From Truepera sp. bin119 (GTDB taxonomy: Bacteria; Deinococcota; Deinococci; Deinococcales; Trueperaceae), in the NCBI GenBank assembly GCA_002239005.1, contig MPNL01000027.1, positions 1-46,246 on the forward strand: a stretch of 46,246 nt of DNA. The letters are read 5' to 3'. A model generated the notes under the pieces. That model did no database searches, had not been told where the DNA came from, and was given only the letters and a program-made list of their open reading frames with translations. Positions 8,515-27,318 of the stretch are shown piece by piece. The position numbers and the translations under genes are program-made. Every line of letters starts with the position of its first letter. The first letter of the stretch is position 1.

Positions 8515-8640
8515 CCAGCCCCCTCGCTTGGGTCAAGGTAGGGCCGGCTCGAAAAATGCCAGCGACCTGCGCTCGGGCAGCGGCGGGGCAGGGTATCGCT
8601 CGGCTAGGATTTCCTTCACCAAAGATGCACGCTTAAGTGC

Positions 8641-8646
8641 TACATT
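8641..8646 (+). promoter_or_regulatory. -10 box of YceI-like gene 1 (leaderless)
   Basis: TACATT, 7 nt before ATG 8654. The paralogue at 27297 has TATAGT at the same distance, so the spacing is kept although the bases differ. Confidence 0.5.
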
Positions 8647-8653
8647 TTCTTGC

Positions 8654-9268: not shown

Positions 9269-9400
9269 GACCTCACGAGGCGGACTGGTGCCTGACAGGG
9301 CGGTATGACAGCGACCTTGCCGAGGCTGGAATAGAGCTGCCGGAGGCCTAGAGGCTAGCGGGGTTGGAGTAGGGGTCTGCTCTTTCGGGCTAGGCTGTAA

Positions 9401-10810: not shown

Positions 10811-10937
10811 TCATGGCCGCCCGCGCCGACCCCTCTGCTCCTTCTCACTCCTCATCAGCTCCCGCAACATGGCGTTCATCCGGGTCTGGTAGCCCTTTCC
10901 CTTCGACTTCAGCCAGTCGATAACATCGGTATCCAAA
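10811..10937 (-). pseudogene. brnA: brnA antitoxin, C-terminal half (split by transposon)
   Basis: Encodes DTDVIDWLKSKGKGYQTRMN then AMLRELMRSEK and a stop at 10811. The DVxxWxKxxGxGYQTRxN motif is the DNA-binding signature of BrnA antitoxins. The N-terminal half is 13.9 kb away at 24849-25002. Joining the two with one copy of the 8-bp target duplication gives 273 bp, exactly 91 codons including the stop, with no frame break. Confidence 0.92.
10930..10937. repeat. Target site duplication, left copy
   Basis: TATCCAAA, identical to 24849-24856 and immediately outside the left terminal repeat. Confidence 0.93.
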
Positions 10938-10963
10938 GGGAATTATGTAGAAGAGTGCCGAAA
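10938..10963 (+). repeat. Left terminal inverted repeat
   Basis: Begins GGGAATTATGTAGAAGAGTG and ends CCGAAA. It matches the reverse complement of 24823-24848 except at positions 14 and 16. The 11-bp sequence AACCAAGGTCA follows twice, at 10970 and 10996 (26 bp apart), and part of it (CCAAGGTC) also follows the right repeat. Confidence 0.93.
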
Positions 10964-10969
10964 AACAAA

Positions 10970-11006
10970 AACCAAGGTCAAAGGTAAAAAGCCAGAACCA
11001 AGGTCA
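10970..11006 (+). repeat. Direct repeat AACCAAGGTCA in transposon left end
   Basis: Two copies, 10970-10980 and 10996-11006, with starts 26 bp apart, next to the terminal repeat. CCAAGGTC also occurs just inside the right end. These could be subterminal transposase-binding sites. Confidence 0.5.
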
Positions 11007-11186
11007 CTACCGGACAATCCGGGCCTCGACCGCGTACCCGCCGTCTTTCTTGGCCATCCATTGGCGGGCACAGGTTTCTAGGGCCTGCTTCAGCTCGCAG
11101 GCTAACGGCTCTAGCTTCTCACGCTCTTCAGTCGGCGGACGCGGAAACTCCACAATGACAATTACCTTTGATCGTAACGGGTCCAA
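11007..11186 (-). CDS. Small unknown protein, transposon cargo
   Basis: 59 aa if the TTG at 11186 is used. The translation looks coding: LRSKVIVIVEFPRPPTEERE, then an amphipathic helix KLEPLACELKQALETCARQW, ending GGYAVEARIVR. It is the third gene of a minus-strand group (11783 to 11007) and starts 18 bp after the previous stop. An internal GTG at the residue before EFPRPP is an alternative start. No family recognised. Its stop codon lies about 45 bp from the transposon end. Confidence 0.45.
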   Translation of the reverse strand: MDPLRSKVIVIVEFPRPPTEEREKLEPLACELKQALETCARQWMAKKDGGYAVEARIVR

Positions 11187-11204
11187 CGATGGGGTACCGA
11201 CCCG

Positions 11205-11555
11205 TTACAATTTTTTGGGAACTCCAATGACGAAGTGACGGCTAGGCTCATCACGTTCCTGTCTAGGCTTGTCATCGACGAAGCCACCCGTCATTCCGAC
11301 CCCGATTGGGGCGGCTTGAACAAGACCTCGGCGGAAGAGTTCGCGAGCCTCCTCGTCTCTTTCCTCTAGGGTCTTCTCTCCGAGAAAATCGAATTTCATA
11401 CCGCCACCTATCAGATCACCTTCGCGGACGACCCCGCAGGTTGGACAGGTCATACGTGCCGTGTTTGCATCAATGAGTTCGATGTCTGCCGGGACTTGAA
11501 AAAAGCGGCATACGAACGTTTCGTCATCACCGCGTAATACTCTGTCTTCGGACAT
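11205..11555 (-). CDS. Small protein with single CxxC pair, unknown
   Basis: 116 aa from ATG 11555, preceded by ggagtgagagt. An N-terminal segment FVCRFFQVPADIELIDANTA leads into ARMTCPTCGVV, one CxxC pair that could bind metal if dimeric or together with the earlier Cys. A charged helical stretch, LEERDEEARELFRRGL, and a Gly-rich stretch, GVGMTGGFVDD, follow. A longer frame opens at 11612 with a TTG. Middle gene of the minus-strand group 11783-11007. No family recognised. Confidence 0.6.
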   Translation of the reverse strand: MSEDRVLRGDDETFVCRFFQVPADIELIDANTARMTCPTCGVVREGDLIGGGMKFDFLGEKTLEERDEEARELFRRGLVQAAPIGVGMTGGFVDDKPRQERDEPSRHFVIGVPKKL

Positions 11556-11612
11556 ACTCTCACTCCAGAACCGTTGATTCCGTTCCGAAAACATCCTGTT
11601 GAAACCCCGCAA

Positions 11613-11783
11613 TCAGCCAGTCCGCTTCGGCTTCGGAATGTGACGAATGCTCACCGGCTTGGCAAGAGCCTCAATCGCCTCCTCGAAGGTCGCATTAACC
11701 CGCTTGTCCTCTTCCAGCTCCGCCTTTGAGGGTTGGTAGCTCGGGTGTACTATTTCGACCTCACGGGGCTTAGGCTTCGACAT
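11613..11783 (-). CDS. Small conserved-looking protein, transposon cargo
   Basis: 56 aa, strongly charged: MSKPKPREVEIVHPSYQPSK, then AELEEDKRVNATFEEAIEAL, ending KPVSIRHIPKPKR. A ggagg Shine-Dalgarno site lies 6 nt before ATG 11783. I recall small proteins with the VEIVHPSYQPSKAEL-ED core from other bacterial accessory regions, but no function is known to me. It is the first gene of a three-gene minus-strand group beside the left transposon end. Confidence 0.65.
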   Translation of the reverse strand: MSKPKPREVEIVHPSYQPSKAELEEDKRVNATFEEAIEALAKPVSIRHIPKPKRTG

Positions 11784-11999
11784 TATTGCCTCCAGTTACC
11801 TTGAGCTTTTACCCAAATCCTCTTCATGGAAGAATAACACACGTGCTTTCTTTTTTCCATATGCACGCCCGCAGGACACTGCCGACCAGATGGCTGGTCA
11901 GGGGTATGGATGGGAAGCGGTTGCGGTATCAGGACTTGATTGCGAAGTAGGGCTCAGGTAGAACCCATCTAGTGCATCCTGCACCAAAGGAGAGAACCG

Positions 12000-13319
12000 T
12001 TGCTTGAAGTACTGTCTAAGCCTATAGACGAAATCACGATTGCCGACATTCAGTCGTTGATCGATGAGGAAGTTCCCGAAGGTGAGCAGATTGAGTTCAA
12101 GAGAGAGCTTCCAGCAGCAAAAGGGAAGATCGACCGATGGATGACTCGCGGAGACGATATTGGCGACTATGCGAAGAGAGGGATACTTGAGGAGGTCGTT
12201 GCGTTTGCAAATGCGTATGGCGGTGTGTTGCTCATAGGCATTGAAGAGTCCAAAACGAAGCCATCGGTTGCCACCAAGATCTCACCAGTTCCACGATGTG
12301 CAGATTTAGCGGATCGTCTCAAGAATGTATTTCGTGACTGCGTGGACCCGAAGTTCGTCCGAGTTGATATCGACAGAATTTTGGCTAAAGACAGGTGCGA
12401 ATGTAATGACGAGTGTGGATGTGGGGTTGTCATCATTCGGGTGGGGAAGTCGCGTCTGGCTCCACATCAGGTCAGGTTTCAGAAGACAAGAATCTGTACA
12501 ATCCGACGTGCCGACCGATGCCAGGAAATGACCATGCGTGAGATCCAGGACATGACATTGAACGTATCTCGTGGTCTAGAGCGGTTGGAAAAGAGGCTTT
12601 CAGAACGTTCTGAGCGCTTTCAAGAGGATTTTAGTCGCTTCGCAGTTCAAGAGAGTGCATTCGGCATCCGCTTTACCGCCGTTCCCGTGGTGGACGAAAT
12701 ACGATTCGACCGTGTTTTCCATCGAGGGCGTATTGTTAGTGATCTCGATATGCCGTGGCGTGAGGTTCTCCGTAAAAGATCAGGCCACAGAGAGAGACTG
12801 GACGATGCCTTACCCGATTTTCCACCTTCACCTTGGCAACCGCGATTGCGTGGTACACGGGCGGAACGTGAAACCCCTGACTCTATTCCAAATTACCTGC
12901 CCTCGTATTCTAGTTACTTGGAACTTCATACTGATGGCTTGGTCGAGCTTGGTTTTCTTTCGATCACTGACGAAAACAATGTAGAGCGCTACCTTCTTGA
13001 CCCTGACTGGCCTATTGTCATGTTTGCGAACCTAGCGGTTTGGGCTGATCACATCAGAAATAAAGCTGGTGCTCCCACTGCCGAATATGCTCTTGAGGTG
13101 GAGACACGCAATCTGGGAAATGCTGGGGTCGTGGGAAAGTTTGGAGGGAAAGTCGTTCATGGAAAACCGCGTTCACTCCCTAGACTTCCGAACACAGAGT
13201 TCCCCAGATATCCTTTGAATGATCCTGATGATATCACCGGACTTCTGGCAGTATTCTTCTGTGATTTCTGGAATTCGATGGGTAAGGATTGTGAGGACGC
13301 GGATTTTATCTTGGTCTAA
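12000..13319 (+). CDS. AlbA_2 (AAA_4/Schlafen-like) domain protein
   Basis: 439 aa. Residues about 25-185 match the AlbA_2 putative DNA/RNA-binding domain: EGEQIEFKRELP, then ILEEVVAFANAYGGVLLIGI, then VVIIRVGKSRLAPHQV and ICTIRRADRCQEM. A Cys-rich insert, CECNDECGCG, within the domain could bind metal. The rest (about 190-439) has a coiled stretch ERLEKRLSERSERFQEDF and no recognised domain. TTG 12000 has aaaggag 8 nt upstream. AlbA_2 proteins occur in regulators and in defence islands. With restriction genes beside it in the same transposon, a defence role is plausible but unproven. Confidence 0.8.
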   Translation: MLEVLSKPIDEITIADIQSLIDEEVPEGEQIEFKRELPAAKGKIDRWMTRGDDIGDYAKRGILEEVVAFANAYGGVLLIGIEESKTKPSVATKISPVPRCADLADRLKNVFRDCVDPKFVRVDIDRILAKDRCECNDECGCGVVIIRVGKSRLAPHQVRFQKTRICTIRRADRCQEMTMREIQDMTLNVSRGLERLEKRLSERSERFQEDFSRFAVQESAFGIRFTAVPVVDEIRFDRVFHRGRIVSDLDMPWREVLRKRSGHRERLDDALPDFPPSPWQPRLRGTRAERETPDSIPNYLPSYSSYLELHTDGLVELGFLSITDENNVERYLLDPDWPIVMFANLAVWADHIRNKAGAPTAEYALEVETRNLGNAGVVGKFGGKVVHGKPRSLPRLPNTEFPRYPLNDPDDITGLLAVFFCDFWNSMGKDCEDADFILV

Positions 13320-13516
13320 TAGCTGTTGTTGAAGGCAAAGGTCGTCTTGTGTTACGACCTATGACTCCTCAGTCAGATGGCAAAGAACTCCTGAGTGCCG
13401 GTCCCCCGACTCGCCAGAATCCTGAAAGGCTTGCAAGGGGTGGTACACTGGCCCTACATGGATGAGAGCGAAAAATCGGCGAGCAACTGGTCAGCAGCAA
13501 GGACTGAGACCCGGTT

Positions 13517-14965
13517 ATGCCGACACTAGATTTCAAGGGCAAGCAGCACATTTACGCCCATCACCTCACTGTTCCTTATCGACCATTGGAGCCCGATACT
13601 GGCCGGTCGCTTAACCCGACCGGTGTGGACGACAACCTCATCATCCACGGCGACAACCTGCACGCGCTGAAGGCCCTGCTGCCTCGCTACGCTGGTCGCA
13701 TCAAGTGCATCTACATCGACCCGCCCTACAACACCGGCAACGAAGGTTGGTGCTACAACGACAATGTGAACAGCCCGTTGATGCAGGAGTGGTTCGAACA
13801 GCACGCCCCGGTGGACGGCGAGGACTTGGAGCGCCATGATAAGTGGCTCTGCATGATGTGGCCGCGACTGCACTTGCTTAAGGAGTTGCTGGCGGATGAT
13901 GGGGTCATTTTTGTATCCATTGACGACAACGAACAGCACCGTTTGCGGATGATGATGGATCAGATTTTTGGGGAGGAGCATTTTGTTGCCAATATCACGT
14001 GGCGCAAAAAGGCCGGGGGCGGACAAGATAGTGAATATCTTGCCCAAGAGCATGATTACGTGTTGAGTTATCGCAAGAGTGAGCACTTTAAGCTGGAGTT
14101 CCGAACTGAAGAGGTTACCGCAGACGGTTTCAACAAAACTAAGAACGGGCGCAAATGCAGATTCATCAAGCTGGAGAAATGGGGGGCTAGTGCCCTGCGC
14201 ACGGATCGCCCCACGATGTTCTATCCGATAAAAGATCCTGACGGAAATGACTTTTATCCCCAAGCCCCCAACGGTGCGGAGGGTAGATGGCGAAAGTTGC
14301 CAGAAAAGCTGGATCGAGATCACATTCACTGGGAGAAAAGGAAAGGACATTGGACTCCGCTGGAAGTCGAATACTTTGACGAAGTATCGGGGCAAAAAAT
14401 AGTCAAAGACCGCACAATTTTCTACGACATTGCCACAACCACTGACGCTGCCAACGAGCAGAAAAACATTTTAGGGCAGAAAAAACTAGACAACAGCAAA
14501 CCGGTCGGCTTGGTACACAGATTACTAGAAATCTCTGCGTCCCCCAAATCTATAGTGCTGGATTCGTTTGCCGGTACCGGCACCACCGCCCACGCTGTCC
14601 TTGCCCTGAACAAAGAGGACGGTGGCAACCGCAAGTTCATCCTCGTGGAGTGCGAGGACTACGCCAACACCATCACCGCCGAACGGGTGCGCCGCGTTAT
14701 CAACGGCGTGCCCAACGCGAAGGATGCGTCGTTGCGGAAAGGTCTGGGCGGCTCCTTCAGCTACTGCACGCTGGGCAACCCAATCGATGTGGAAAGGATG
14801 CTCACCGGCAAGAATCTACCGGAGTATTCGGAACTGGCCGCCTACCTCCTACATACTGCATCGGGTCTGAGTACCAGCGGGAGTCTGGAAGCGAAGAATG
14901 AAGACGGCCTATTTTACAGCAATGACGATACAGACTACTATCTGCTGTATCGCCCCGATTATTGA
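13517..14965 (+). CDS. Site-specific DNA methyltransferase (Mod, type III-like), frameshifted
   Basis: 482 aa N6-adenine/N4-cytosine-type methyltransferase with beta-class motif order: catalytic IDPPYNTG (motif IV, about residue 67) precedes the SAM-binding LDSFAGTGTTAHAVLAL (motif I, about 348). VERVRRVING and SYCTLGNPIDVERML follow. The frame stops at 14965 after YYLLYRPDY, but the expected C-terminal tail continues in the +1 frame from 14961. A one-base insertion near 14958-14961 therefore appears to truncate the protein by about 58 residues. Catalytic motifs are intact, so methylation might persist. It forms an RM pair with the Res gene at 15149. The start is ATG 13517; upstream spacing is ordinary. 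Confidence 0.9.
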   Translation: MPTLDFKGKQHIYAHHLTVPYRPLEPDTGRSLNPTGVDDNLIIHGDNLHALKALLPRYAGRIKCIYIDPPYNTGNEGWCYNDNVNSPLMQEWFEQHAPVDGEDLERHDKWLCMMWPRLHLLKELLADDGVIFVSIDDNEQHRLRMMMDQIFGEEHFVANITWRKKAGGGQDSEYLAQEHDYVLSYRKSEHFKLEFRTEEVTADGFNKTKNGRKCRFIKLEKWGASALRTDRPTMFYPIKDPDGNDFYPQAPNGAEGRWRKLPEKLDRDHIHWEKRKGHWTPLEVEYFDEVSGQKIVKDRTIFYDIATTTDAANEQKNILGQKKLDNSKPVGLVHRLLEISASPKSIVLDSFAGTGTTAHAVLALNKEDGGNRKFILVECEDYANTITAERVRRVINGVPNAKDASLRKGLGGSFSYCTLGNPIDVERMLTGKNLPEYSELAAYLLHTASGLSTSGSLEAKNEDGLFYSNDDTDYYLLYRPDY

Positions 14966-15137
14966 CTGGTTGCGCAGCGACGCGGCCATTCTTAAAGGCG
15001 AGCAAGCTCAACGGATAAGAGACGCAGGCAATAAGGCGGTAGTGTTTGCTGCCGACAAGTACATCGGCCAACGGCTTCTTACCGATATGGGCATCACATT
15101 CTGCCAGATACCCTACGAACTGCACCGGCTGGGATAA
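14961..15137 (+). pseudogene. Out-of-frame C-terminal tail of the Mod gene
   Basis: Reads IDWLRSDAAILKGEQAQRIR, then NKAVVFAADKYIGQRLL and GITFCQIPYELHRLG with a stop at 15137. This tail is characteristic of the C-terminus of Mod proteins of this RM type. It continues directly from RPD of the upstream frame if one T near 14958-14961 is removed. It could be a real mutation, an assembly error, or a phase-variable or programmed frameshift; the site is ccccgattattgac, with no long homopolymer. Confidence 0.75.
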
Positions 15138-15148
15138 GAGGGTAAACC

Positions 15149-17689
15149 GTGCAATTGAAGGAGTACCAGATCCGCGCCTTGGACGCCTTCACCCGCTGGC
15201 GGAATGAACTTACGGCGGCGCAGGCAAGGTCGGAAACCGCCATTGCCGCTTTGGAGCAGGTAGGGGTGAATATTACCCCGGATATACGCAACTATCCCAA
15301 GAGTGCTTGGCAGAAGCTGGCCGAGGCTGGCGAGGTGGCAGCCAGTGCTGGGCCGTATGTTGATCGCACCGCCGAAGCCGGTTATTCGATACCGCACGTC
15401 TGCTTCAAGATACCGACCGGTGGGGGCAAGACGTTGTTGGGCGCTGCTGCGCTCGAACGGCTGAATCAGAACACCGGGCTGGTGCTGTGGATGGTGCCTA
15501 GCAATGCCATCTACCGCCAAACCAAGGCCGCACTGTGGGACCGGGAGCATCCGTACCGGCAGATGCTAGAGCGGGCCAGTGGCGGGCGCGTCAAAATGCT
15601 GGAGAAAGACGACCCGTTCACCGCAGCGGACGTTGAGCATTTCCTCTGCGTGATGCTGATTTCATTGCAATCAGCTAACCGGAAGAACAACAAAGAGTTC
15701 CTGCGAATGTTTCGGGATTCGGGCCGCTATTCCACCCTATTCCCGGACACCGACAACGTGCTAGGCGATGCTGCCTTGTTGCAAAAATATCCTGATTTGG
15801 AACGGGTCACGGGAGATGGGCCGGTCAAACACAGCCTGTTCAACGCTTTCAAGATGTTACGTCCGGTCGTCGTACTTGATGAAGCCCATAAAGCATACGG
15901 CAGCCAGGAAAAGCACGGTGAAGAGTTTGTACGTTCGATCAACCGCCTGAATCCCAGCTTGGTGATTGAGTTGTCGGCCACCCCAAGCCATTCCAAAAGC
16001 AACCTGCTGGTGGATATTTCCGGCGTTGATCTCAAAAGCGAAGAGATGATCAAACTTCCGGTACAGGTTACGTCTTTCACCAACGCCGAATGGAAGTACA
16101 CATTAGGAGAGGCTCATGCCCAGTTGGAACGGCTGAGCAACGAGGCCGTGTCCCTACAACACAGTGAGGGTCGCTACATTCGACCGATTGCGGTGGTGCG
16201 AGTAGAGCGGACGGGCAACGACCAACAAGACGGCAAGCGCATCCATGCCGAAGATGTGCGGGAACAGCTGACGCGGAATCTAGGCGTACCCGCTTCAGCC
16301 GTAGCTGTCCAGTCCGCCACGAGCAAGGAATTGGTCGGCGTGGACCTGTTGTCGGAGTTGTCGTCGATAAAGTGGATAATCACCAAATCGGCGCTGATGG
16401 AGGGCTGGGATTGCCCATTTGCCTACCTGCTGGTGATGCTGGATAACACCAGGGCGAAAAGGGCTATCACCCAGTTGGTAGGGCGGGTGATGCGCCAGCC
16501 TCATGCTCATCTTACCGGGCGAGAAGCTCTGGACCAGTGCTATGTCTATTGCCAGGATATAGGTGTGAATGAGGCTGTGGATCACGTAAAAACAGGTTTG
16601 GAGCAGGAAGGAATGACTGGGCTGGACAGTGACGTTCGAGGCCAAGGAGCGGCGAACCTAAAGCCAGTGGCGATCAAACGCCGGGAGCGGTTCCGTGAGG
16701 CGGAATTCTTCCTGCCTCGGGTGCTACATCAGGACGATGACTGCGGGTGGACTGAACTAGAGTATCAGCGCCACATTGCACCCCACATAGACTGGGATGG
16801 CATCGGACCGCCCAACATATGGGGCGCTCAAGCCCAAGGCCCGCAAGGTTCGACTGCGACCGTTGACCTGGATGCGGAGGCTGCCCAGGAGATATACGAC
16901 GACCCCCAGGAACTGTTCATCGACACCAGTGTGCAAATCTCCTGGTACGCACGTCGCATTTCCGATGTGATGCCGAACCCTTTTCAGGCGGCTCGCATTA
17001 CTCAAGAACTTGTCCAACAGATGTATGACTCTGGTCACGATGACGACGCCATATATGCTCAACGTTCCCCACTGGCGGCGCAATTGCGGGACCACGTAAC
17101 ACAGGAGGCGGACAAGCAGGCGGAGCAGGTCTTTCGGGCCAAGTTGGCCAATGGCGAAATCCGCTTTGACCTAGAGACCAGCGACCACAATCATCGCCTT
17201 ACCAAAAAGCCGCCCGAGATACTCGTGTCCGACAGCGACAGGCAATTGCAGGGTTACGGGCGTTCGGTACAGCTTAGCCTTTTTGAACCAGTATTTGAGC
17301 GGGATTTCAACGGACTGGAGCGCCGATTCGCCTTTTATCTGGATGAGCAAAAGGCGCTACATTGGTGGCATCGAGTAGCTGTCCGGCAACAGGGCGAGTA
17401 TTACCTGCGGGGTTGGCGGCGCGACCGCATCTGGCCCGATTTTGTGGCGATGGCCGGGGAAACTGGCGGCAAGCCCAGCGTGCTGGTTTTTGAGACCAAG
17501 GGCGAGCACCTGAGGGACAATGACGATACCAAGTATAAGGAGCGGGTATTCGCCGCTTTGGAAAAGACCTTCAACGCAGGCATAATGACCGTTCACAATG
17601 GACCGGCCAAGGGGGTATTCCGCCTCGTTTTTAACCAGAATGGCTTCTCCGATGTGCAGGCCGTCTTTGATGGGTTGAGCAGTCCATAA
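15149..17689 (+). CDS. Type III-like restriction endonuclease (Res) with SF2 helicase
   Basis: 846 aa. Helicase motifs: IPTGGGKTLL (Walker A, about residue 90), VVLDEAHKAYG (about 243), IELSATPS, and QLVGRVMRQPHA (motif VI). Near the C-terminus RIWPDFVAM followed by VLVFETKGEHL gives a PD-(D/E)xK nuclease core (about 760-785), so cleavage capacity looks intact. Family members translocate on DNA with ATP and cut with their Mod partner. The start is GTG 15149, with gaggg 6 nt upstream and 11 bp after the Mod tail. If Mod is truly broken, an active Res would be dangerous, so the frameshift needs checking. Confidence 0.92.
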   Translation: MQLKEYQIRALDAFTRWRNELTAAQARSETAIAALEQVGVNITPDIRNYPKSAWQKLAEAGEVAASAGPYVDRTAEAGYSIPHVCFKIPTGGGKTLLGAAALERLNQNTGLVLWMVPSNAIYRQTKAALWDREHPYRQMLERASGGRVKMLEKDDPFTAADVEHFLCVMLISLQSANRKNNKEFLRMFRDSGRYSTLFPDTDNVLGDAALLQKYPDLERVTGDGPVKHSLFNAFKMLRPVVVLDEAHKAYGSQEKHGEEFVRSINRLNPSLVIELSATPSHSKSNLLVDISGVDLKSEEMIKLPVQVTSFTNAEWKYTLGEAHAQLERLSNEAVSLQHSEGRYIRPIAVVRVERTGNDQQDGKRIHAEDVREQLTRNLGVPASAVAVQSATSKELVGVDLLSELSSIKWIITKSALMEGWDCPFAYLLVMLDNTRAKRAITQLVGRVMRQPHAHLTGREALDQCYVYCQDIGVNEAVDHVKTGLEQEGMTGLDSDVRGQGAANLKPVAIKRRERFREAEFFLPRVLHQDDDCGWTELEYQRHIAPHIDWDGIGPPNIWGAQAQGPQGSTATVDLDAEAAQEIYDDPQELFIDTSVQISWYARRISDVMPNPFQAARITQELVQQMYDSGHDDDAIYAQRSPLAAQLRDHVTQEADKQAEQVFRAKLANGEIRFDLETSDHNHRLTKKPPEILVSDSDRQLQGYGRSVQLSLFEPVFERDFNGLERRFAFYLDEQKALHWWHRVAVRQQGEYYLRGWRRDRIWPDFVAMAGETGGKPSVLVFETKGEHLRDNDDTKYKERVFAALEKTFNAGIMTVHNGPAKGVFRLVFNQNGFSDVQAVFDGLSSP

Positions 17690-17785
17690 GGGGAATTGAG
17701 CGCCCTATCCCCCGTTGTGACCATCCTCGCTCGAACGCTCAGACCCAGCTCCCCAACTGCCTCCCCCCTCACACAACGGTCAGTA

Positions 17786-18070
17786 CTACCACCCCTTCCA
17801 GTTCTTGACAAAATCCTGCGTCTCTTTGACCCCAGCGCGAAGTGGCTTGACTAACTGTCCGACGTATCGGTAGAAGCTAGTCCCCAGTGGTTTCTCTGGC
17901 AATAAATCAAGCTCTTCAAGTCTTTTCCTGAGTGAGATGTAAAGTTCGTTTGATACTGACCCCTTCTTTGAAAGTGCATACAGCACACCTTCAATGTGGC
18001 CAGCCAGGATTTTATTCTCCTTTTCGCGTTCTTCTCTTGTCAAAGTATGTTGCGCTAAATCGATCATCAT
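17786..18070 (-). CDS. Small helical protein, unknown
   Basis: 94 aa, mostly helical and charged: MMIDLAQHTLTREEREKENK, ILAGHIEGVLYALSKKG, ELYISLRKRLEELDLL, ending in DFVKNWKGW. No family recognised. Start ATG 18070 is chosen because a perfect TATAAT lies 7 nt upstream; the frame itself extends to 18103. It is convergent with the Res gene and divergent from the hairpin motif at 18140. Confidence 0.6.
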   Translation of the reverse strand: MMIDLAQHTLTREEREKENKILAGHIEGVLYALSKKGSVSNELYISLRKRLEELDLLPEKPLGTSFYRYVGQLVKPLRAGVKETQDFVKNWKGW

Positions 18071-18077
18071 AGAGAGC

Positions 18078-18083
18078 ATTATA
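18078..18083 (-). promoter_or_regulatory. -10 box of 94-aa gene (leaderless)
   Basis: TATAAT on the minus strand, 7 nt before ATG 18070; TTTTTG 17 nt further upstream may serve as -35. Confidence 0.55.
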
Positions 18084-18139
18084 CCGCTTCCAGAACCGAA
18101 CAAAAACCGTTCGTGCTAGACTTTCCCTTGCAAACCCTT

Positions 18140-18179
18140 CAGGTTCCCGCGAGTCGGGCTACCTGCGAATACAACAACC
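18140..18179 (+). other. Hairpin + AATACAACAACC motif, copy 1
   Basis: CAGGT...CCCGCGAGTCGGG...ACCTG can form a hairpin, followed by AATACAACAACC. The same core recurs at 46191-46229: the CCCG-NN-AGTCGGG loop stem, then exactly 9 nt, then AATACAACAACC. A TAGACT box at 18117-18122 could transcribe it. It may be part of a small RNA or a leader; class unknown. Confidence 0.45.
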
Positions 18180-18302
18180 CACCGAAGGTGAGGGATTGAT
18201 CCCCCGAGCCAGGGTGAATAAGCAGGGTTTCCTCTGTCACAACCTGAAGGAGTTTGCAATGGCCCGGCACTGACATATCCAGTGTCGGGCGGGAGGTGTG
18301 AC

Positions 18303-19697
18303 GTGGGAAGAGGGGGATCGATATCGCTCATAGCCTTTTGCTTGTTCTCGGTGTCGGGATGCTTCTTGCCAGTAGAGACCCCCGTTGGGCCACAGCCCAT
18401 TATCGAGGAACGGCCCACTCTCGAAGAACGGCTCACTGTCCTTGCCAACATTCTCGACGAAGAAGTTGATGAAGAAGTCAATGAAGAGGTTGGCGAAGAG
18501 GTCAACGGGGAAGTCGCCGTCACTGAGGAGGTCGCAGAGGAAGCCACTGAGGAAGTCACCGAAAAAGGGCGAGCGTGGCATACCGCAGTTTGGAATTTGG
18601 CTGCCAGGTGGGGCGGCTTCTTGTGGGACAGGCTCTTGAAGGCTTGGGGGCTCACCAAAGAGGCTGGGGCTATAGCAATCAAGCTGGGCATAAACTATGT
18701 GGCCGTAGCATACGAACACGGCATAGGCTACGCAAACGGCATGATTAGGGTTTCGGCAGCCGCCTTGGATTCGGTCACTTCCTCCGACGCTTATAAGGAG
18801 ACGTTGGACGTACTCAGCAACCCCGGCATCTTTATTGACGCTTATGGAAGGTTGTCAAGGTTTGCACGTAATTTGGATTGGTCGAAGATCGATCCGATTA
18901 GGTATGTCTTTGCTGGAACCCGAGGGGTTGCGCGCTCCTTGGAGGCGGCAAAAGGGGTTTGGGAGACAATCCCCAAAGCTATTAGGGCTGCTGGTCCAGA
19001 GGCTACGGCGAGATATCTAGCCGGTAAGGATTGGAGTCATATCTACCCTCATAGCCTGGGTGGGAGCAATGATCCCCGTAACGGCATCTTTGAGGACAGG
19101 TACTTCAACCGAGCTAGAGGGGCTGCCATTATGACACCGCGTGAATACGGCGCAGCACAAGCCGTTTTGCGGGGCAATGCCTTTCAAGTCACCTTGCAGC
19201 AGACAGCCCAAGGTGCTCTAAGGGGCGGCACGATTTCGGCAGCAGTCTTAGCAACGGTTGCTGTATTGGAACTCGGATTGCAGTACCAGCAAGGCGAGAT
19301 TACGGCAGAAGAGATGTACCTTGAATTCGGCAAGACGGTTGGTGCAGCGGGGCTAGCCGGTGCCGCAGTTTCAGGGTTGGTAACGGCTATGGCCTTAGCT
19401 TTCCCGCCCATCATCCCTGTGGTCACTGTGATATCGGTGCCGTTGGCGATTGTCGGCTTCTCGGTGCTCGGGAGTAGACTGATAAACGCTGGCAAGGGTT
19501 GGTATGAGGTCTTCATAGAAGAGTCTCCCTTGAGGCCAGAAGCATTACGATACTGGTTAGCGAAACGCTACGAGAGCGTGAGGAATGTTGTGCTAGGCCG
19601 TAATGCTGTAGAGTACTCGTTCCTTGACTGTTGGCCCAGTCCCAGCATTGAGCACCTTGTTGAGCCCTATAAGATACTCGCTGTACTTAAATGTTGA
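18303..19697 (+). CDS. Lipoprotein with HNH-like motif and helical hydrophobic tail
   Basis: 464 aa from GTG 18303, preceded by gggagg 7 nt upstream. Signal ISLIAFCLFSVSGC carries a good lipobox (VSGC). Residues about 45-90 are Glu-rich with repeated EEV units. Near 240-280 a conserved-looking block reads DWSHIYPHSLGGSNDPRNGI, then FEDRYFNRARGAAIMTPREY. The H-x3-H...GG...N...N spacing resembles HNH-type nucleases. It is followed by a Gly/Ala-rich region with hydrophobic helices (about 305-400). The layout recalls secreted toxins or colicin-like proteins, but function is inferred. A longer start (GTG 18282) would bury the signal. No immunity gene is recognisable; the 47-aa membrane protein downstream is a candidate. 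Confidence 0.65.
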   Translation: MGRGGSISLIAFCLFSVSGCFLPVETPVGPQPIIEERPTLEERLTVLANILDEEVDEEVNEEVGEEVNGEVAVTEEVAEEATEEVTEKGRAWHTAVWNLAARWGGFLWDRLLKAWGLTKEAGAIAIKLGINYVAVAYEHGIGYANGMIRVSAAALDSVTSSDAYKETLDVLSNPGIFIDAYGRLSRFARNLDWSKIDPIRYVFAGTRGVARSLEAAKGVWETIPKAIRAAGPEATARYLAGKDWSHIYPHSLGGSNDPRNGIFEDRYFNRARGAAIMTPREYGAAQAVLRGNAFQVTLQQTAQGALRGGTISAAVLATVAVLELGLQYQQGEITAEEMYLEFGKTVGAAGLAGAAVSGLVTAMALAFPPIIPVVTVISVPLAIVGFSVLGSRLINAGKGWYEVFIEESPLRPEALRYWLAKRYESVRNVVLGRNAVEYSFLDCWPSPSIEHLVEPYKILAVLKC

Positions 19698-19770
19698 GGG
19701 CTCAGCTTCCACTGCTAGCCCAGGCACAGGTATTCGGGACAAGGGAGCGTTGGTATTGGTGAGTTAGCGA

Positions 19771-19914
19771 ATGCGGATTCTGTGGTTGCTAATCACACTG
19801 CCCTTTAGGGTCGTCTGGTGGCTAACCAGGCTGCCCTTTAGGGTCGTGGCGGTCCTCGCAAGGGTGGCTCTCTTCGTGGTAATTATCCTCATAATTGCCT
19901 ACCTTGTCGTCTAG
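19771..19914 (+). CDS. 47-aa hydrophobic protein, unknown
   Basis: Starts MRILWLLITLPFRVVWWLTR and ends FVVIILIIAYLVV. LPFRVV occurs twice, 14 residues apart, from a near direct DNA repeat (ctgccctttagggtcgt). Two hydrophobic stretches with Arg between suggest a small membrane protein. It lies 73 bp after the HNH-like lipoprotein gene on the same strand and could be its partner, but the start has only a weak Shine-Dalgarno site. Confidence 0.5.
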   Translation: MRILWLLITLPFRVVWWLTRLPFRVVAVLARVALFVVIILIIAYLVV

Positions 19915-20086
19915 CCCATCTGATGTTACCTTGCCCCAAGAGATCGAGCGCCGGTCGCTGCACTGGCGCCCATGTCTTCCATGAAAGGAACAAGAATGTC
20001 CGAAGAAAAAGTACACCTTTTTCGTACGAAAACGGCTTTATGCAATAATCACTGTGCGCGTGTTTGGAGGGGGGTATAGAACTTAG

Positions 20087-21031
20087 GTGCCAGTACCCGA
20101 CTATCAATCTCTCATGTTACCCCTGTTGGAGTTGGCCGATGAGTACGACTTCCTCCAGCTTCGTGAAGCAATTGATCTCCTCGCGCTGCGTCTGAACTTA
20201 ACGGAAGATGACAAAAGAGAGCTTCTGCCAGGTGGGCGGCCAAGATTCTACAATCGGATAACCTGGGCACAAAGCAATCTCGCAAAGGCAGGTTTATTGG
20301 AATTCCCAAAGAGAGGACACTTTCGCATTACCGAACGAGGCCGCAGCGTTCTTGCTGGTGAGCCAGCCAGGGTTGACAACAAATTTCTTGTGCGATTTGA
20401 GGAGTTCAAGAAGTATCAGGACCAGTTAAAGCAAACCCGCCAGCAACAGGGCTCACAGGGTTCGCGGGATTCACAAACTGGTCCGATTCCGATTAAGCCT
20501 GAAATCCCCAAAGATACACCAGAGGAGAATCTTCACAAGGCTTATGTGGAGCTGAAAGAGAAACTTGCTGCCGAGTTGCTGCAAGGGATCATGGAATCAC
20601 CTCCCGAGTTCTTTGAGCGATTGGTTGTGAAACTGCTAGACCGCATGGGCTACGGGGGGTCTGAGCAGGAAGTCGGTGAAGCAATAGGCGGCTCAGGAGA
20701 TGAGGGGATTGACGGAGTTATCAAGCAAGACCGTTTGGGCTTGGAAGTCATCTACATTCAAGCAAAGCGATGGGAAAACGCTGTCGGTAGACCTGAGGTT
20801 CAGAAATTTGCTGGCGCCCTACAAGGCCAGAAGGCACGAAAGGGAGTATTCATCACAACGTCAACCTTTACCTCTGGGGCAAAGGAGTACGTGACGAACA
20901 TTGATACCAAGATCGTCTTAATTGAGGGAACCCAACTTGCCGAGTTCATGATTGACCATGATGTTGGTGTGACCACCGAAGAGACCTATCGGTTAAAGCG
21001 GATAGATTCAGATTACTTTTCGGAGATGTAA
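20087..21031 (+). CDS. mrr: Mrr-type restriction endonuclease
   Basis: 314 aa. The N-terminal winged-helix domain (Mrr_N) covers about residues 1-90: YQSLMLPLLELADEYDFLQL then FRITERGRSVL. The C-terminal Mrr catalytic domain has FFERLVVKLLDRMGYGG, GSGDEGIDGVIKQD and VIYIQAKRWENAVGRPEVQKF, giving the D...QxK active site of the PD-(D/E)xK fold. It ends GTQLAEFMIDHDVGV. Mrr enzymes cut methylated DNA. GTG 20087 has TATAGA 6 nt upstream and no close Shine-Dalgarno site. It sits in the transposon between the HNH-like lipoprotein and the transposase. Confidence 0.93.
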   Translation: MPVPDYQSLMLPLLELADEYDFLQLREAIDLLALRLNLTEDDKRELLPGGRPRFYNRITWAQSNLAKAGLLEFPKRGHFRITERGRSVLAGEPARVDNKFLVRFEEFKKYQDQLKQTRQQQGSQGSRDSQTGPIPIKPEIPKDTPEENLHKAYVELKEKLAAELLQGIMESPPEFFERLVVKLLDRMGYGGSEQEVGEAIGGSGDEGIDGVIKQDRLGLEVIYIQAKRWENAVGRPEVQKFAGALQGQKARKGVFITTSTFTSGAKEYVTNIDTKIVLIEGTQLAEFMIDHDVGVTTEETYRLKRIDSDYFSEM

Positions 21032-21149
21032 GGGCTAAATGGAGTCCTTCGTGTGAGGTGCCCAGGGGATAAAGAGGTTGCCCCTCCTGCTGTAGCGAGG
21101 GGCGTCGAATCTTCCCGAAAAGGTGTCGGTTAAGCTCTTATCGCAGCAC

Positions 21150-22124
21150 TCACGAATTCGCCCCGTTCGGTAACCCGTTGTCTGCAATCAGCTCACGGTA
21201 GCGAAGCCGCTTACCATCCATGCCGCCAGTAACCGCAGCGATGATGTCGATGGTGTCAAGCTCGCGCAGATTGTGACGAGCGGCGAACTCTTGAACGTAG
21301 CGGTCGAGGTGCTTGGGCGAGAGTTTGTGGAACGTCCCTTTGTGAGCCCTTTTGAGGGTTGACCAGAGGGACTCGATGCCATTGGTGTGCACGTCGCCCT
21401 TGACGTACTCAGAGAGCGAGTGCTTGACCGTCTCATGGTCGAACGGAAGCGACTCATAGGCGCTGGCTTCATCACTGTAGACCGTAGCGCCAGGGGCAGC
21501 GTGGGTGCGGACAAAGTCCTGTAACGTCTCGGCGTCGGTGCTCTCCACTACCTGGGCAGCAACCCGGTTACTGTCGCGGTCTTTGACTCCAGAGACCGCT
21601 ACTTTGCCGACAGGACCGCGCCCTAGCCCCATCTCTGCCAGCTCCCTACGCTTCGCATTGGACATATTCTTGCGCTTCCCGCCGAAGTATGTTTCATCAA
21701 CTTCCACCGGTCCTGCGAAGACCTCCCCCTGTTCGGACAACGCAACCCGCAGCCGGTGGGCAAGGAACCAAGCGCTGCGCTGGTTGATATCCAAGTCCCG
21801 GTGCAGCTTCATGCTCGATACGCTCTTGAGGCTAGTCGAGAGCAGGTAGGTGGCAATCATCCACGTCTGAAAGCCAAGCTTGGAACCTTCCATCACCGTT
21901 CCGGTCTTAGCGCTGAACCGCTTAGCGCACTCCTTCTCACGGCAACGGAACGGCATGGTTTTGTGCTTGGCTCCTGTCTGTACATTGGTCGAGCCGCAGT
22001 GCGGGCAAGCAACCCCATCAGGCCAACGACGCTCGATAAACCACGCCTCTGCCGTGGCGTCGTCAGGGAACTGCTTCATGATCTCGATAAGTGAAATGCC
22101 TTTTCTGTATCCTTTTCCAGCCAT
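21150..22124 (-). CDS. IS1595-family transposase (ISXO2-like)
   Basis: 324 aa. The N-terminal zinc ribbon reads CPHCGSTNVQTGAKHKTMPF followed by CREKECAKRFS and KTGTVMEGS. The DDE_Tnp_IS1595 domain has catalytic Asp residues in VEVDETYFGGKRK and TVYSDEASAYES. The TNGIESLWSTLKRAHKGTFH block then carries the third acidic or Asn position, followed by KHLDRYVQEFAARHN. It appears intact and is the only transposase in the 13.9-kb element. ATG 22124 has a full promoter 6 nt upstream (-10 TAAAAT, 17-nt spacer, -35 TTGACT) whose spacer contains the terminal-repeat core. Confidence 0.95.
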   Translation of the reverse strand: MAGKGYRKGISLIEIMKQFPDDATAEAWFIERRWPDGVACPHCGSTNVQTGAKHKTMPFRCREKECAKRFSAKTGTVMEGSKLGFQTWMIATYLLSTSLKSVSSMKLHRDLDINQRSAWFLAHRLRVALSEQGEVFAGPVEVDETYFGGKRKNMSNAKRRELAEMGLGRGPVGKVAVSGVKDRDSNRVAAQVVESTDAETLQDFVRTHAAPGATVYSDEASAYESLPFDHETVKHSLSEYVKGDVHTNGIESLWSTLKRAHKGTFHKLSPKHLDRYVQEFAARHNLRELDTIDIIAAVTGGMDGKRLRYRELIADNGLPNGANS

Positions 22125-22130
22125 GTCTAT

Positions 22131-22159
22131 ATTTTACAGGAGAGTGCCGAAAAAGTCAA
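22131..22159 (-). promoter_or_regulatory. Transposase promoter overlapping a TIR-core sequence
   Basis: On the minus strand: TTGACT, 17-nt spacer, TAAAAT, then 6 nt to the ATG. On the plus strand AGAGTGCCGAAAAA (22141-22154) is identical to 14 bases of the left transposon end. Transposase bound there would cover its own promoter. Confidence 0.7.
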
Positions 22160-22208
22160 GGGGTTTGTGGGTGAAATCGGTGGCGTTTTGAGATAACATA
22201 GGGCCAAG

Positions 22209-23192
22209 TTGGCTACGGAGCGGTTTTCGATCAGGTTCCTCGGTGAAGCCGTAGAGTCGGGAGTCATTGATGTAAAAGACCTCGCCCCTACTCTTCTTGC
22301 AGTTGGCGAGTTGATAGAAGAATCCAACCGAGTGCTTAATGGGGACAGGGCCTCGGTGAAGGTTGGTATTAGACCAGATTTTCAGTCCGGTTCGTTTGAG
22401 GGCACGCTTGAGCTTGCGGTCTCGTTCTTTGAGTTCGCCAAGAATGTGTTCAGCAAAGACAAGCCGCTGGATGCACGACAGATTCTGGACGCCATTGGAT
22501 TCTCAGTCACTACTGTCGGAGCGGTTGCTGAAGCCATCCCTTCCCTGTACGAACTTGTACGCAGAATCGGGCTACGTAAGCCAACTTCAGTAATGAAGCT
22601 AGAAGCAGGTGATACTAGGCTAACCCTTGATGACGCAGAGGTGCTAAAAACTCTTGACCTGGCGGTTGACCTGTACAGCGACGATAAGGTGAGTAGGGCT
22701 TTGGTGAGGGTTGGAAAAGCACTTACGGAGCGCACAGGAATCGATGCCATTCAAATGGGCATTGCGTTACCTGGGTCAGACAGTCTTCCCATGGAATATA
22801 CCAAGAAGGATGCGCCCATTCTGGAAGCTTTGGAAGAGAAATCTGAGGCTTTTGAGGTTCTTGGGGAAAGTACCTCAGTGCGTGTTTTTGGCGTTAAACG
22901 TGTTGATTTCTCGGGTGACCTTAAGTGGGCACTGCATGATGGCAAGAATCGGTTTCATGCCAGTATTCTTGACACCAAGTTCTTGCAGCAAGTCCAGCAC
23001 GGAGAGATTGCATTTGCAAGTGATACCCTTATAAGGGCAGAGTCTAAGGAGATCCAAACGCTTACCGCTACTGGCAAGCTGAATAGCAGATATGAGATTT
23101 TGAAGGTACTCGAAATTATATCGGCATCAACGCAGGGAAGGCTTGACCTCCCTCAACTACCTGAAGATGGGGATGAAGATGAACAGATCTGA
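22209..23192 (+). CDS. Conserved-looking hypothetical, transposon cargo
   Basis: 327 aa, soluble. N-terminus RFSIRFLGEAVESGVIDVKD, then LAPTLLAVGELIEESNRVLN and GDRASVKVGIRPDFQSGSFE; this block is strongly structured. A helical middle part (FFEFAKNVF, AIPSLYELVRRIGLRKP) and a beta-rich C-terminal part follow. No catalytic motif recognised. TTG 22209 is the annotated start with TAACAT 9 nt upstream. The Pro-rich small gene downstream overlaps its 3' end, suggesting coupling. Function unknown; position in a defence-rich transposon is the only clue. Confidence 0.7.
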   Translation: MATERFSIRFLGEAVESGVIDVKDLAPTLLAVGELIEESNRVLNGDRASVKVGIRPDFQSGSFEGTLELAVSFFEFAKNVFSKDKPLDARQILDAIGFSVTTVGAVAEAIPSLYELVRRIGLRKPTSVMKLEAGDTRLTLDDAEVLKTLDLAVDLYSDDKVSRALVRVGKALTERTGIDAIQMGIALPGSDSLPMEYTKKDAPILEALEEKSEAFEVLGESTSVRVFGVKRVDFSGDLKWALHDGKNRFHASILDTKFLQQVQHGEIAFASDTLIRAESKEIQTLTATGKLNSRYEILKVLEIISASTQGRLDLPQLPEDGDEDEQI

Positions 23193-23343
23193 ACGTAAGG
23201 ACGCTCCCCAGCCTCCTCCAGCGTGGAGGAGGGGATGGAACCCAAAACCTCCCGACATCAAACCTCCGACAGTTGTCCCGTTTAAGCCCGTTCCACCATC
23301 GAGGCCCACCCCACCACCACCTAGTAAGCCCCGCTCGGGCTAG
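23167..23343 (+). CDS. Small proline-rich protein, unknown
   Basis: 58 aa from ATG 23167 (ATG at 23173 or 23179 also possible). The body is basic and Pro-rich: RSERKDAPQPPPAWRRGWNP, then KPPTVVPFKPVPPSRP and PPPPSKPRSG. It overlaps the last 26 bp of the upstream gene in another frame, as coupled small genes often do. Probably disordered; no family recognised. Confidence 0.45.
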   Translation: MGMKMNRSERKDAPQPPPAWRRGWNPKPPDIKPPTVVPFKPVPPSRPTPPPPSKPRSG

Positions 23344-23444
23344 TACCCCTCAAAATTGGATGGATGCTGGGTAAGTTCGCGGCAGTTTCGGTTTTGCCCA
23401 GAGGTGCTCGGAAGTGCAGATTTCCGACGCTCAGTGTGGAGCTA

Positions 23445-23450
23445 TAGGCT
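23445..23450 (+). promoter_or_regulatory. -10 box of 112-aa membrane protein gene
   Basis: TAGGCT, 6 nt before GTG 23457, matching the leaderless layout of other genes here. Confidence 0.4.
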
Positions 23451-23456
23451 AGGGCT

Positions 23457-23795
23457 GTGAATGTACAGTGCTTAACTCAATTCGGACTAATACTAGACAT
23501 ACTGGGTGTGACCCTACTGTTCTTCGCTACAACATATAGACGAATAGAAGAAGAGTTTGGCTATGGGTTGGCACAAGAAACTGTAGACATGGCAACCGTA
23601 ACCGTAGAGAACCCGGAAACCGGGGAAGTCGTGACCGGAGTGTTGGAGCCCGGTGGTCAGAAGATCGAGGATCTCAAAAGGCAATTACCGGACATGGGTA
23701 GAAGGGTGAGAGGAAATCATGCTCGTGCGCGAGTGGGCTTGGGTTTAATAGTCTCGGGTTTCGTCATCCAACTGGTCGGTACGTTCTCTTTCTAG
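23457..23795 (+). CDS. Small membrane protein with two TM segments, unknown
   Basis: 112 aa. Hydrophobic segments at both ends (FGLILDILGVTLLFFATTYR, about residues 9-28; VGLGLIVSGFVIQLVGTFSF, about 93-112) enclose a hydrophilic domain of about 65 residues. The domain contains TVTVENPETGEVVTGVLEPG and a basic stretch, RRVRGNHARARV. This topology puts both termini on the same side. It lies just upstream of the putative large RNA and on the same strand. No family recognised. Confidence 0.6.
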   Translation: MNVQCLTQFGLILDILGVTLLFFATTYRRIEEEFGYGLAQETVDMATVTVENPETGEVVTGVLEPGGQKIEDLKRQLPDMGRRVRGNHARARVGLGLIVSGFVIQLVGTFSF

Positions 23796-23816
23796 GCTCG
23801 AACCCTACCTGTTCTG

Positions 23817-24350
23817 AGCGGCATGACATTCCGCTGTGATACAATGAGGCTGCGCTGAACAACCATCCTACGGGGTGGAATTGACGTTCGGCGTAAAGGG
23901 GGTGGCCATTGTGGAAAACTTTGTTTCCGCTTTGGTACCTCGAAGCCGACTCCCTATCGAGTAGGATGCCGGTTTTGCACCCGGCACTCCCGGATTCTGG
24001 AACGCCGGATCGGAGGTGGCTCCTGCTGGTAAAGGTAGGACTGGGCCACCTCACGATGGCGGAAAAGTCTTTGGGGCGGTTTCGCGCTAGGCTTCAGCCT
24101 GACAAAACATCAGGTCGTGTGCGCGAAGGTGACCTACAACCGTGTCTGAGCGGGAATAGGCGGCCCGTTTGGAGTCCCTGCCCAGGGATGGAGTGTATCC
24201 GCTAGTCGGAGAGCCTAACCTTGGGGGCACAGCCGCTGCTAACGGCATGGCCCAAGGTGCAAAGCACCGGTGGGAACGTGGTCGGATTCTCAAAATCAGG
24301 GTCTACGTAAACCCTGGAGGAGGGTTACCTGGCCACGTTCACCTTTTTCT
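23817..24350 (+). ncRNA. Putative large structured non-coding RNA (~530 nt)
   Basis: No convincing protein is encoded, yet nested complementary arms fill the stretch. Examples: CGCTGAAC 23853 with GTTCGGCG 23886 around CCATCC/GGGTGG; ACAATG 23841 with CATTGT 23907; GAGGTGGC 24013 with GCCACCTC 24045; TTCGCGC 24081 with GCGCGAA 24121 around AGGC-TTCA-GCCT; CCTTGGG 24219 with CCCAAGG 24251 around GCCG/CGGC. The last is GAACGTGG 24274 with CCACGTTC 24333 around CAGGGT/ACCCTG, followed by TTTTT at 24344, like an intrinsic terminator. It has the size and complexity of large ornate bacterial RNAs (ROOL, OLE, GOLLD), but I do not recognise the class, and I see no group I/II intron or RNase P core. 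Confidence 0.6.
24274..24348 (+). terminator. Terminator-like 3' end of putative RNA
   Basis: An 8-bp stem GAACGTGG/CCACGTTC encloses an inner 6-bp hairpin and is followed after 3 nt by five T residues. Confidence 0.45.
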
Positions 24351-24417
24351 CAACTCCTAGCCCAGTTCAAGTGCAAAATCCCCACCCCCTTCCCACCCCA
24401 TGTGCAATAATTACCGT

Positions 24418-24804
24418 ATGTTACAGAACAGATTGGCTACTGACGGCACACATGGCTATCGTGATACACTCCCGCCCAAGAAGGAGTTGATCGATTACAT
24501 GACCGACCAAGAGAGAAGGGCGAAACGAGGAGAGACGCAAGAGAAGATAGAGGACGCTGAGGAGTTCCTACAACTTATCGAAAAAAGAATTGGGGAGCAC
24601 ATAGACGAGTTCGAACAAACAGTGGGGTATCTCGAAAACGAATTGAAAACGAAAGACGGAGCCCCAACGTTTGGGCCAAAAGTGGGCTCCGAATTTGACT
24701 ACCCGGCTAAGGGGGGAGTTGAAGAACTAATCACTGGCCTGAGAGAAAAAAGAAGTGAACTCTCAAACCTTAAACGGGAATTAAAAAGGTACATAAGGCG
24801 CTAA
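24418..24804 (+). CDS. Small coiled-coil protein, transposon cargo
   Basis: 128 aa from ATG 24418, which has AATAAT 6 nt upstream; ATG 24400 and ATG 24499 are in-frame alternatives. The C-terminal two thirds are heptad-rich: QEKIEDAEEFLQLIEKRIGE, HIDEFEQTVGYLENELK and EELITGLREKRSELSNLKRE. A short Gly/Pro segment (GAPTFGPKVGSEFDYPAKGG) separates two helical arms, so it may fold as a helical hairpin. It is the last gene before the right transposon end. No family recognised. Confidence 0.55.
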   Translation: MLQNRLATDGTHGYRDTLPPKKELIDYMTDQERRAKRGETQEKIEDAEEFLQLIEKRIGEHIDEFEQTVGYLENELKTKDGAPTFGPKVGSEFDYPAKGGVEELITGLREKRSELSNLKRELKRYIRR

Positions 24805-24822
24805 ATGGTTTTCGACCTTGGA

Positions 24823-24848
24823 TTTCGGCACTTTCCTACATAATTCCC
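24823..24848 (-). repeat. Right terminal inverted repeat
   Basis: The reverse complement begins GGGAATTATGTAGGAAAGTG and ends CCGAAA, matching the left end at 24 of 26 positions; CCAAGGTC follows 1 nt inside it. Confidence 0.93.
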
Positions 24849-24856
24849 TATCCAAA
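24849..24856. repeat. Target site duplication, right copy
   Basis: TATCCAAA, identical to 10930-10937. Confidence 0.93.
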
Positions 24857-25002
24857 CGGATATAGATGCCCTTCTTCGGCTGTGGCATCTGGAGCTCGAC
24901 CCGCTGCCAGAAGCTTTCATCGGCCTCCGGGATCTCCGCAGAGTCGATCTCCTGATCCTGGATCGCCTCAATCTCCTTTAGTCGCTTTGCTGAGATGCTC
25001 AT
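24849..25002 (-). pseudogene. brnA: brnA antitoxin, N-terminal half (split by transposon)
   Basis: Codes for MSISAKRLKEIEAIQDQEID, IPEADESFWQRVELQMPQPK and KGIYIRLD, the N-terminal part of BrnA (IPExDExFW...MPxPKK). After LD the frame runs into the terminal repeat and adds 22 foreign residues before a stop. The missing half is at 10811-10929, and together they give a 90-aa BrnA. BrnA neutralises BrnT and represses the operon. Its start overlaps the 3' end of the decayed brnT, the standard brnTA order. Confidence 0.92.
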
Positions 25003-25250
25003 AGTATGCCCTCCGCTCTCTGGAGTTGGCCTTGCGGGCCGAGATCAGCCGAATTCGGCCACTACGGCTGGTGTGAACCACGACGATGACGACCGACTCA
25101 CTGAGTTGCAGCTGATAAAGCGCTCCTCTCCATAGTCCTGGCGCTTATCTGGAGCAGTAGGTAGGCGCCCGGAGAAGATGACGCTGGCCTCCTCGAAATG
25201 GATGCCGTTCGTCCCATGACCTCCTCCGATGCAAAGTGGAACGGTAAAGA
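24968..25250 (-). pseudogene. brnT: brnT toxin, frameshifted
   Basis: Recognisable BrnT pieces lie in different frames: GIHFEEASVIFSGRL and DYGEERFISCNS in one, then SVVIVVVHTSRSGRIRLISA and RKANSRERRAYYE in another, with the stop at 24968 inside brnA. At least one frameshift (near 25085) separates them, and the N-terminal WDxxK part is not clear. BrnT is a ribosome-independent RNase toxin. This copy is probably dead, which would make loss of the antitoxin harmless. Confidence 0.75.
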
Positions 25251-27297: not shown

Positions 27298-27304
27298 GCC
27301 AATT

Positions 27305-27310
27305 ACTATA
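27305..27310 (-). promoter_or_regulatory. -10 box of YceI-like gene 2 (leaderless)
   Basis: TATAGT on the minus strand, 7 nt before ATG 27297. Confidence 0.55.
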
Positions 27311-27318
27311 GCATTTAC

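Follow-up and report, generated by a model that had tools for sequence, protein, structure and literature searches.

The locus analyzed here raises the question of how almost 14 kb of DNA with a single transposase gene came to lie inside an antitoxin gene. It is found in the window, a 46,246-nt stretch of one contig from the draft genome of Truepera sp. bin119. A first-pass annotation, made from the letters alone, had described positions 10930 to 24856 as an IS1595-type transposon that split the antitoxin gene brnA. The insertion stands as described, with the element proper somewhat narrower, running from 10938 to 24848 (13,911 bp) once the target duplications are left out. We consider it very probable that this is an IS1595-family cargo transposon, moved as a unit into brnA by one transposase and self-limited by a copy of its end core in the transposase promoter.

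The sequence bears out the ends that had been proposed. The 26-bp terminal inverted repeats match at 24 of 26 positions, and a perfect 8-bp target duplication, TATCCAAA, lies on both flanks (Table 1). When the window was scanned for exact 8-bp duplications with inverted repeats bracketing the transposase, the 10938/24848 end pair was recovered, and all other pairs matching at 18 or more of 22 positions lay inside an unrelated 638-bp inverted repeat that falls outside the element. The G+C content is 0.50 to 0.57 within the element versus about 0.57 to 0.68 in the flanking kilobases. The arms of the 638-bp repeat (8634 to 9271 and 26680 to 27317) are 87% identical and symmetrically placed about the element, and inversion of the whole intervening stretch could occur between them; the right arm encodes a YceI-like protein (PF04264).

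The interrupted gene could be restored on paper. Rejoining the brnA flanks with one duplication copy gave a 273-bp frame of 90 residues and a stop, which agrees with the 91 codons counted in the first-pass annotation. Poor alignment of the brnA halves to intact BrnA proteins had been named as a finding that would speak against a split gene; the rejoined protein aligned well with the Pfam family BrnA_antitoxin (PF14384; 64.8 bits, E of 9e-18). No orthologous empty site was readable in 150 genomes related to the host, in which no close transposase (E ≤ 1e-90) was found either. Therefore, another brnTA remnant of this genome, on contig C28, stood in for the empty site; over 444 bp it has 93% identity with the rejoined flanks, and its alignment runs uninterrupted across the insertion point. 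Thus, the empty brnTA site that the first-pass annotation proposed to look for exists as a paralogous copy and not as an orthologous one. The C28 copy has a 4-nt deletion of its own, and its brnT is the same truncated C-terminal form as the one in the window. Because the two copies share this truncation, the toxin-antitoxin pair was probably nonfunctional even before the insertion. Likewise, since brnT is merely a C-terminal fragment at both sites, loss of brnA probably cost the host little.

The transposase contains the DDE_Tnp_IS1595 catalytic domain (PF12762; 134.9 bits, full profile, 3 to 153 of 153) and an N-terminal zinc ribbon (PF12760; 30.4 bits against a cutoff of 25.4), and it matches NF033547 of NCBIfam at 184.2 bits against a cutoff of 75. 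Its frame is intact with full domains, and the gene sits nearer the right end (about 2.7 kb away) than the left (10 kb away). Together with the 8-bp duplication, the single transposase, and the inverted-repeat ends, these domains place the element in the IS1595 family, as the first-pass annotation had assigned it. The GGGAATTAT tip of the ends resembles ISNwi1-group ends, which is a lead only toward placement in the ISNwi1 or the ISNha5 subgroup.

Elsewhere in this genome, similar ends enclose other cargo. A further three complete elements, 3.3 to 3.6 kb long, have perfect 8-bp duplications: one on contig C51 (3,578 bp; duplication CTAGTATA), whose cargo includes an N6/N4 methyltransferase that has an Mrr-like nuclease domain, and two on contig C3 (3,458 bp with CTCTTTTA and 3,297 bp with TTCGCGAA). 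Contig C70 (L005:4757) holds the window’s 26-bp left end letter for letter beside different neighbors, including a SocA/Panacea-type gene; neither a right-end partner nor a transposase was found on that contig. For the transposase on contig C7, candidate ends lie at contig positions 14609 and 18728, but the 8-mers beside them mismatch, and this locus was not counted as a complete element. A different IS1595-type element of 2,537 bp, with ends CGGAATTTCC (22/22) and duplication TTGAAGTT, lies on contig C46 (L026:8951-11487). The 150 related genomes without a close transposase suggest that the element family arrived in this host horizontally.

To place these elements in a wider family, an alignment of five transposases of this genome was used as the query against one genome per species. 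The scan returned 463 relatives, and the family figures rest on the best 80 of these, which gave 79 loci, all from metagenome-assembled genomes (MAGs). Complete elements could be resolved at 46 of the 79 loci, from named MAGs that span at least seven phyla, and 45 of the 46 have exact 8-bp duplications; two further elements (L068 and L070) were recognized by eye. The resolved elements are 1.5 to 8.5 kb long, and each has at least one nontransposase open reading frame (ORF) of at least 90 amino acids (aa). In layout they agree: GGGRATTAT-like ends, 8-bp duplications, and a single transposase, with cargo that varies and often includes DNA methyltransferases. A set of 94 cargo proteins includes 11 N6/N4 DNA methylases and 10 proteins with HNH matches, together with BglII-like, Mrr-like, D12, and MT-A70 proteins as well as nondefense genes. 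Three loci of one genome (L079, L080, and L087) have the same transposase end with differing cargo. The 8.5-kb element comes from a Bryobacterales genome (L056:9850-18311), and its large ORFs include those for proteins of 733 and 490 aa. Planctomycete-type families (PSCyt/PSD1 and DUF1501) are present in the cargo set. This is an unusual nondefense load, not assigned ORF by ORF.

The phyla are mixed on the transposase tree, with 17 label changes versus a minimum of 7, several of them forced by well-supported branches. Because of this mixing, the sequences suggest transfer between phyla. The RHO, APA, SB, MPN, and OX/CATO MAG series are, we presume, derived from sponges. The jk18x series comes from Ircinia sponges (PMC9531527). 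The hosts of the family thus appear to be mostly or entirely sponge symbionts, with the origin read from record names for most loci. The nearest plasmid transposases were below 60% identity, the best among the matches listed being 39.8%. A literature search on IS1595 elements in sponge symbionts returned nothing relevant.

Next, we considered which transposase moved the unit. Across 990 pairs, elements with more similar transposases have more similar ends (Spearman 0.47). The nearest resolved transposases, those of L029 and L032, are 81% and 72% identical to the one in the window, and the ends of each match the window’s end at 24 of 26 positions. Other elements of the same genome fit less well, with 22 of 26 for C51, which has the next-nearest transposase there. 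Since the closest matches to the outer ends are found in the elements with the nearest transposases, the one transposase inside the unit is its natural and likely mover.

In the spacer of the transposase promoter, the terminal-repeat core occurs as an inverted copy (Table 1). The end cores vary among related elements (GTGCCGAA, TTTACCCAA, AGTCACA, AGTAACA, AGTGGCGA, and CTCCCGA), and the promoter copy covaries with them. For 45 distinct ends, the best 12-base match in the promoter averaged 9.71 of 12 compared to 7.94 for permuted pairs, a difference reached in 0 of 20,000 permutations; three other element regions gave no such excess. The copy is inverted in 25 elements, mainly between the promoter boxes, and direct in 14, mainly near the presumed transcription start. 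Because it covaries with each element’s own end core, we suggest that it is a putative operator through which the transposase represses itself. The covariation of a promoter core copy with the ends is a new observation here. We also weighed whether positions 22131 to 22154 form a third end or mark the boundary of an inner element, and rejected both: the outer GGGAATTAT tip is absent there, the stretch is part of the transposase promoter, and most related elements have a counterpart of it.

Taken together, these results are consistent with a mechanism in which the DDE transposase would bind the inner core of the 26-bp ends and pair them, and everything between the outer GGGAATTAT tips would move as one unit. 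Staggered cutting of the target would then leave the 8-bp duplication that now splits brnA. At the promoter copy, bound transposase would block transcription, and because the tip is missing, this site would not serve as a third end. Cargo of the restriction and defense type may be useful to the host, which would favor persistence of the element.

The restriction- and defense-like cargo that had been claimed is present as matches to type III restriction-modification, Mrr, AlbA_2, and PDC-S42 families (Table 1). The res and mrr frames are intact, and mod is frame-shifted, with its C-terminal remainder readable in another frame at 14898 to 15137; this change is either a sequencing error or a real inactivation. 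An imperfect 43-bp inverted repeat (13397 to 13439 and 18125 to 18166) brackets the type III cassette, about 4.7 kb inside, with no target duplication seen beside it. The cassette is possibly a separate module.

Several observations weigh against a self-limited unit moved whole by its own transposase. The 13.9-kb form is known as one copy only, and the next-largest elements are 8.5 kb (with one mismatch in the duplication) and 7.4 kb. A clear core copy is lacking in 6 of 45 promoters; in three of the six (L092, L099, and L105), a TTGAC −35-like box lies within the end itself. Finally, with mod frame-shifted, the cargo is not fully intact unless the shift is a MAG sequencing error. Because no second 13.9-kb copy was found, arrival of the full 13.9 kb in one event is no more than likely. 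The first-pass proposal that the transposase at 21150 moved the whole unit is supported as to the likely mover, and one-jump transfer of the full length is the weaker part of it.

Given these caveats, a smaller IS1595 element of a few kilobases may instead have hit brnA and later grown by cargo insertion or recombination, so that the 13.9-kb form never moved. We regard this as unlikely, albeit worth weighing: related elements are mainly 1.5 to 5 kb, cargo is exchangeable between elements with a common transposase end, and the 43-bp repeat hints at a separate module. However, neither a second transposase nor a nested insertion sequence was recognized inside the element, the G+C content is fairly even along it, and related elements of 5.2 to 8.5 kb with duplications exist. 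It is less probable still that another IS1595 transposase moved the unit in trans, with the internal one mere cargo or inactive. The intact internal frame with full domains argues against this, as do ends that fit their own transposase clade better than the genome’s other elements, even though the genome has further full-length IS1595 transposases (58 to 68% identical) and an identical left end occurs on C70, a contig where no transposase was found. The draft genome is in 91 contigs, but a chimeric assembly or a chance repeat is very hard to reconcile with the perfect duplication, the 24/26 ends, the rejoined gene, the paralogous empty site, and the many elements built alike. A composite transposon, with two whole insertion sequences bracketing the cargo, would suit the large size and multigene cargo and can be dismissed, as each end has a single 26-bp repeat and there is one transposase without flanking insertion-sequence copies.

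Table 1. Features of the 13.9-kb element and of the gene pair it interrupts (window coordinates)
Feature	Position	Strand	Evidence
brnA 3′ part	10811-10929	-	Rejoins with 24849-25002; PF14384; C28 paralogue
Left target-site duplication TATCCAAA	10930-10937	.	Exact-duplication scan
Left terminal inverted repeat GGGAATTATGTAGAAGAGTGCCGAAA	10938-10963	+	24/26 to right end; identical 26 bp at C70:4757
Cargo ORF, 135 aa	11205-11612	-	No match in Pfam, PADLOC, NCBIfam
Schlafen/AlbA_2-domain protein, 439 aa	12000-13319	+	PF04326, 51.9 bits
Type III methyltransferase mod, frame-shifted near 3′ end	13517-14965	+	PF01555, 128 bits; PDLC03640/03644 MTase_III, matched to 479/542
Type III restriction enzyme res, 846 aa	15149-17689	+	PDLC03653 REase_III, 645 bits over 1-827; PF04851
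Cargo ORF, 105 aa	17786-18103	-	No match in Pfam, PADLOC, NCBIfam
Cargo ORF, 471 aa, lipobox-like N-terminal sequence	18282-19697	+	No match in Pfam, PADLOC, NCBIfam
Type IV restriction enzyme Mrr, 314 aa	20087-21031	+	PF04471, 127 bits; PF14338, 89 bits; PDLC03657, 280 bits
IS1595-family DDE transposase, 324 aa	21150-22124	-	PF12762, PF12760, NF033547
Transposase promoter TTGACT-17-TAAAAT, spacer holding inverted terminal-repeat core GAGAGTGCCGAA at 22140-22151	22131-22159	-	Sequence; covariation
Phage-defense candidate PDC-S42/LAPAL family, 327 aa	22209-23192	+	PDLC05015, 208 bits; NF053583, 169.6 bits
Cargo ORF, 112 aa	23457-23795	+	No family match in Pfam, NCBIfam
Cargo ORF, 134 aa	24400-24804	+	No significant family match
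Right terminal inverted repeat GGGAATTATGTAGGAAAGTGCCGAAA	24823-24848	-	Sequence
Right target-site duplication TATCCAAA	24849-24856	.	Exact-duplication scan
brnA 5′ part, including one duplication copy	24849-25002	-	Rejoined frame, PF14384
Truncated brnT remnant, C-terminal part only	25003-25178	-	PF04365, 32.9 bits, profile 49-77/77, below cutoff

Outside the element, ankyrin-repeat proteins are encoded on both sides (25541 to 26323 and 703 to 1218), with partial mutual similarity in inverted orientation. The same contig also encodes a type ISP restriction-modification enzyme of 1,605 aa (36766 to 41583; PF18135 and PF22240).

Sponge microbiomes have long been described as enriched in restriction-modification and other defense genes, and the available text of the two studies that describe this does not identify a specific vehicle for them (PMC5099237; PMC9531527). 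The lineage described here is a concrete, sequence-defined candidate vehicle with precise ends for the defense genes of sponge symbionts. We raise as a tentative idea, for now rather doubtful, that a self-limiting IS1595 cargo lineage crosses phyla in sponge microbiomes and is a main vehicle for defense genes, moving multisystem islands with one small transposase. As the window element demonstrates, a single small IS1595 transposase can have ends that enclose nearly 14 kb of defense-like cargo, and the covarying promoter site provides a simple, testable model for an element limiting its own activity.

The usual IS1595 insertion sequence is about 1 kb, whereas the window element is 13.9 kb with some ten cargo ORFs. 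The two are alike in transposase domains with a zinc ribbon, one transposase gene, GG-starting ends, and 8-bp duplications; the zinc ribbon (in all groups but IS1016), single transposase, and 8-bp duplications are described for the family (PMC8101967). Cargo-carrying IS1595 elements such as ISNha5 were named tIS by Siguier et al. (2009), as cited in PMC11891212, and the first-pass remark that some members carry passengers is thus correct. In the window, too, genes unnecessary for transposition sit between the ends of one element, and the likeness to tIS extends to one transposase and ordinary ends. In contrast, ISNha5-type elements range up to about 8 kb, a range that the window element exceeds, and their cargo is a regulator, whereas here it is several restriction and defense genes. 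A distant relative on the Methylobacterium oryzae plasmid pMOC1 (L112; 3,413 bp) has GGCGATTATAT-type ends (18/22), the 8-bp duplication AATCGGAA, a transposase next to one end, and a VapC-family toxin gene as cargo. It differs in being smaller, with a transposase that is 35.5% identical, and in standing outside this group of MAGs. Because it carries the VapC-family gene, cargo is not confined to the MAGs found here. In IS21, end binding by IstA masks promoter elements and was proposed to limit its own expression (PMC10122671). There the promoter boxes lie in the ends, whereas in the window element the transposase promoter has a separate core copy, at a distance of 2.7 kb from the nearer end. 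Therefore, of the suggestion that this is a large and possibly undescribed transposon type, the size holds, since this is the largest member found, and the claim to an undescribed type is weakened, since tIS are known and the lineage has dozens of members of 1.5 to 8.5 kb. A cargo-carrying IS1595 element is a known kind; its size, its multisystem defense cargo, its lineage and the spread of that lineage, and the promoter copy set this element apart.

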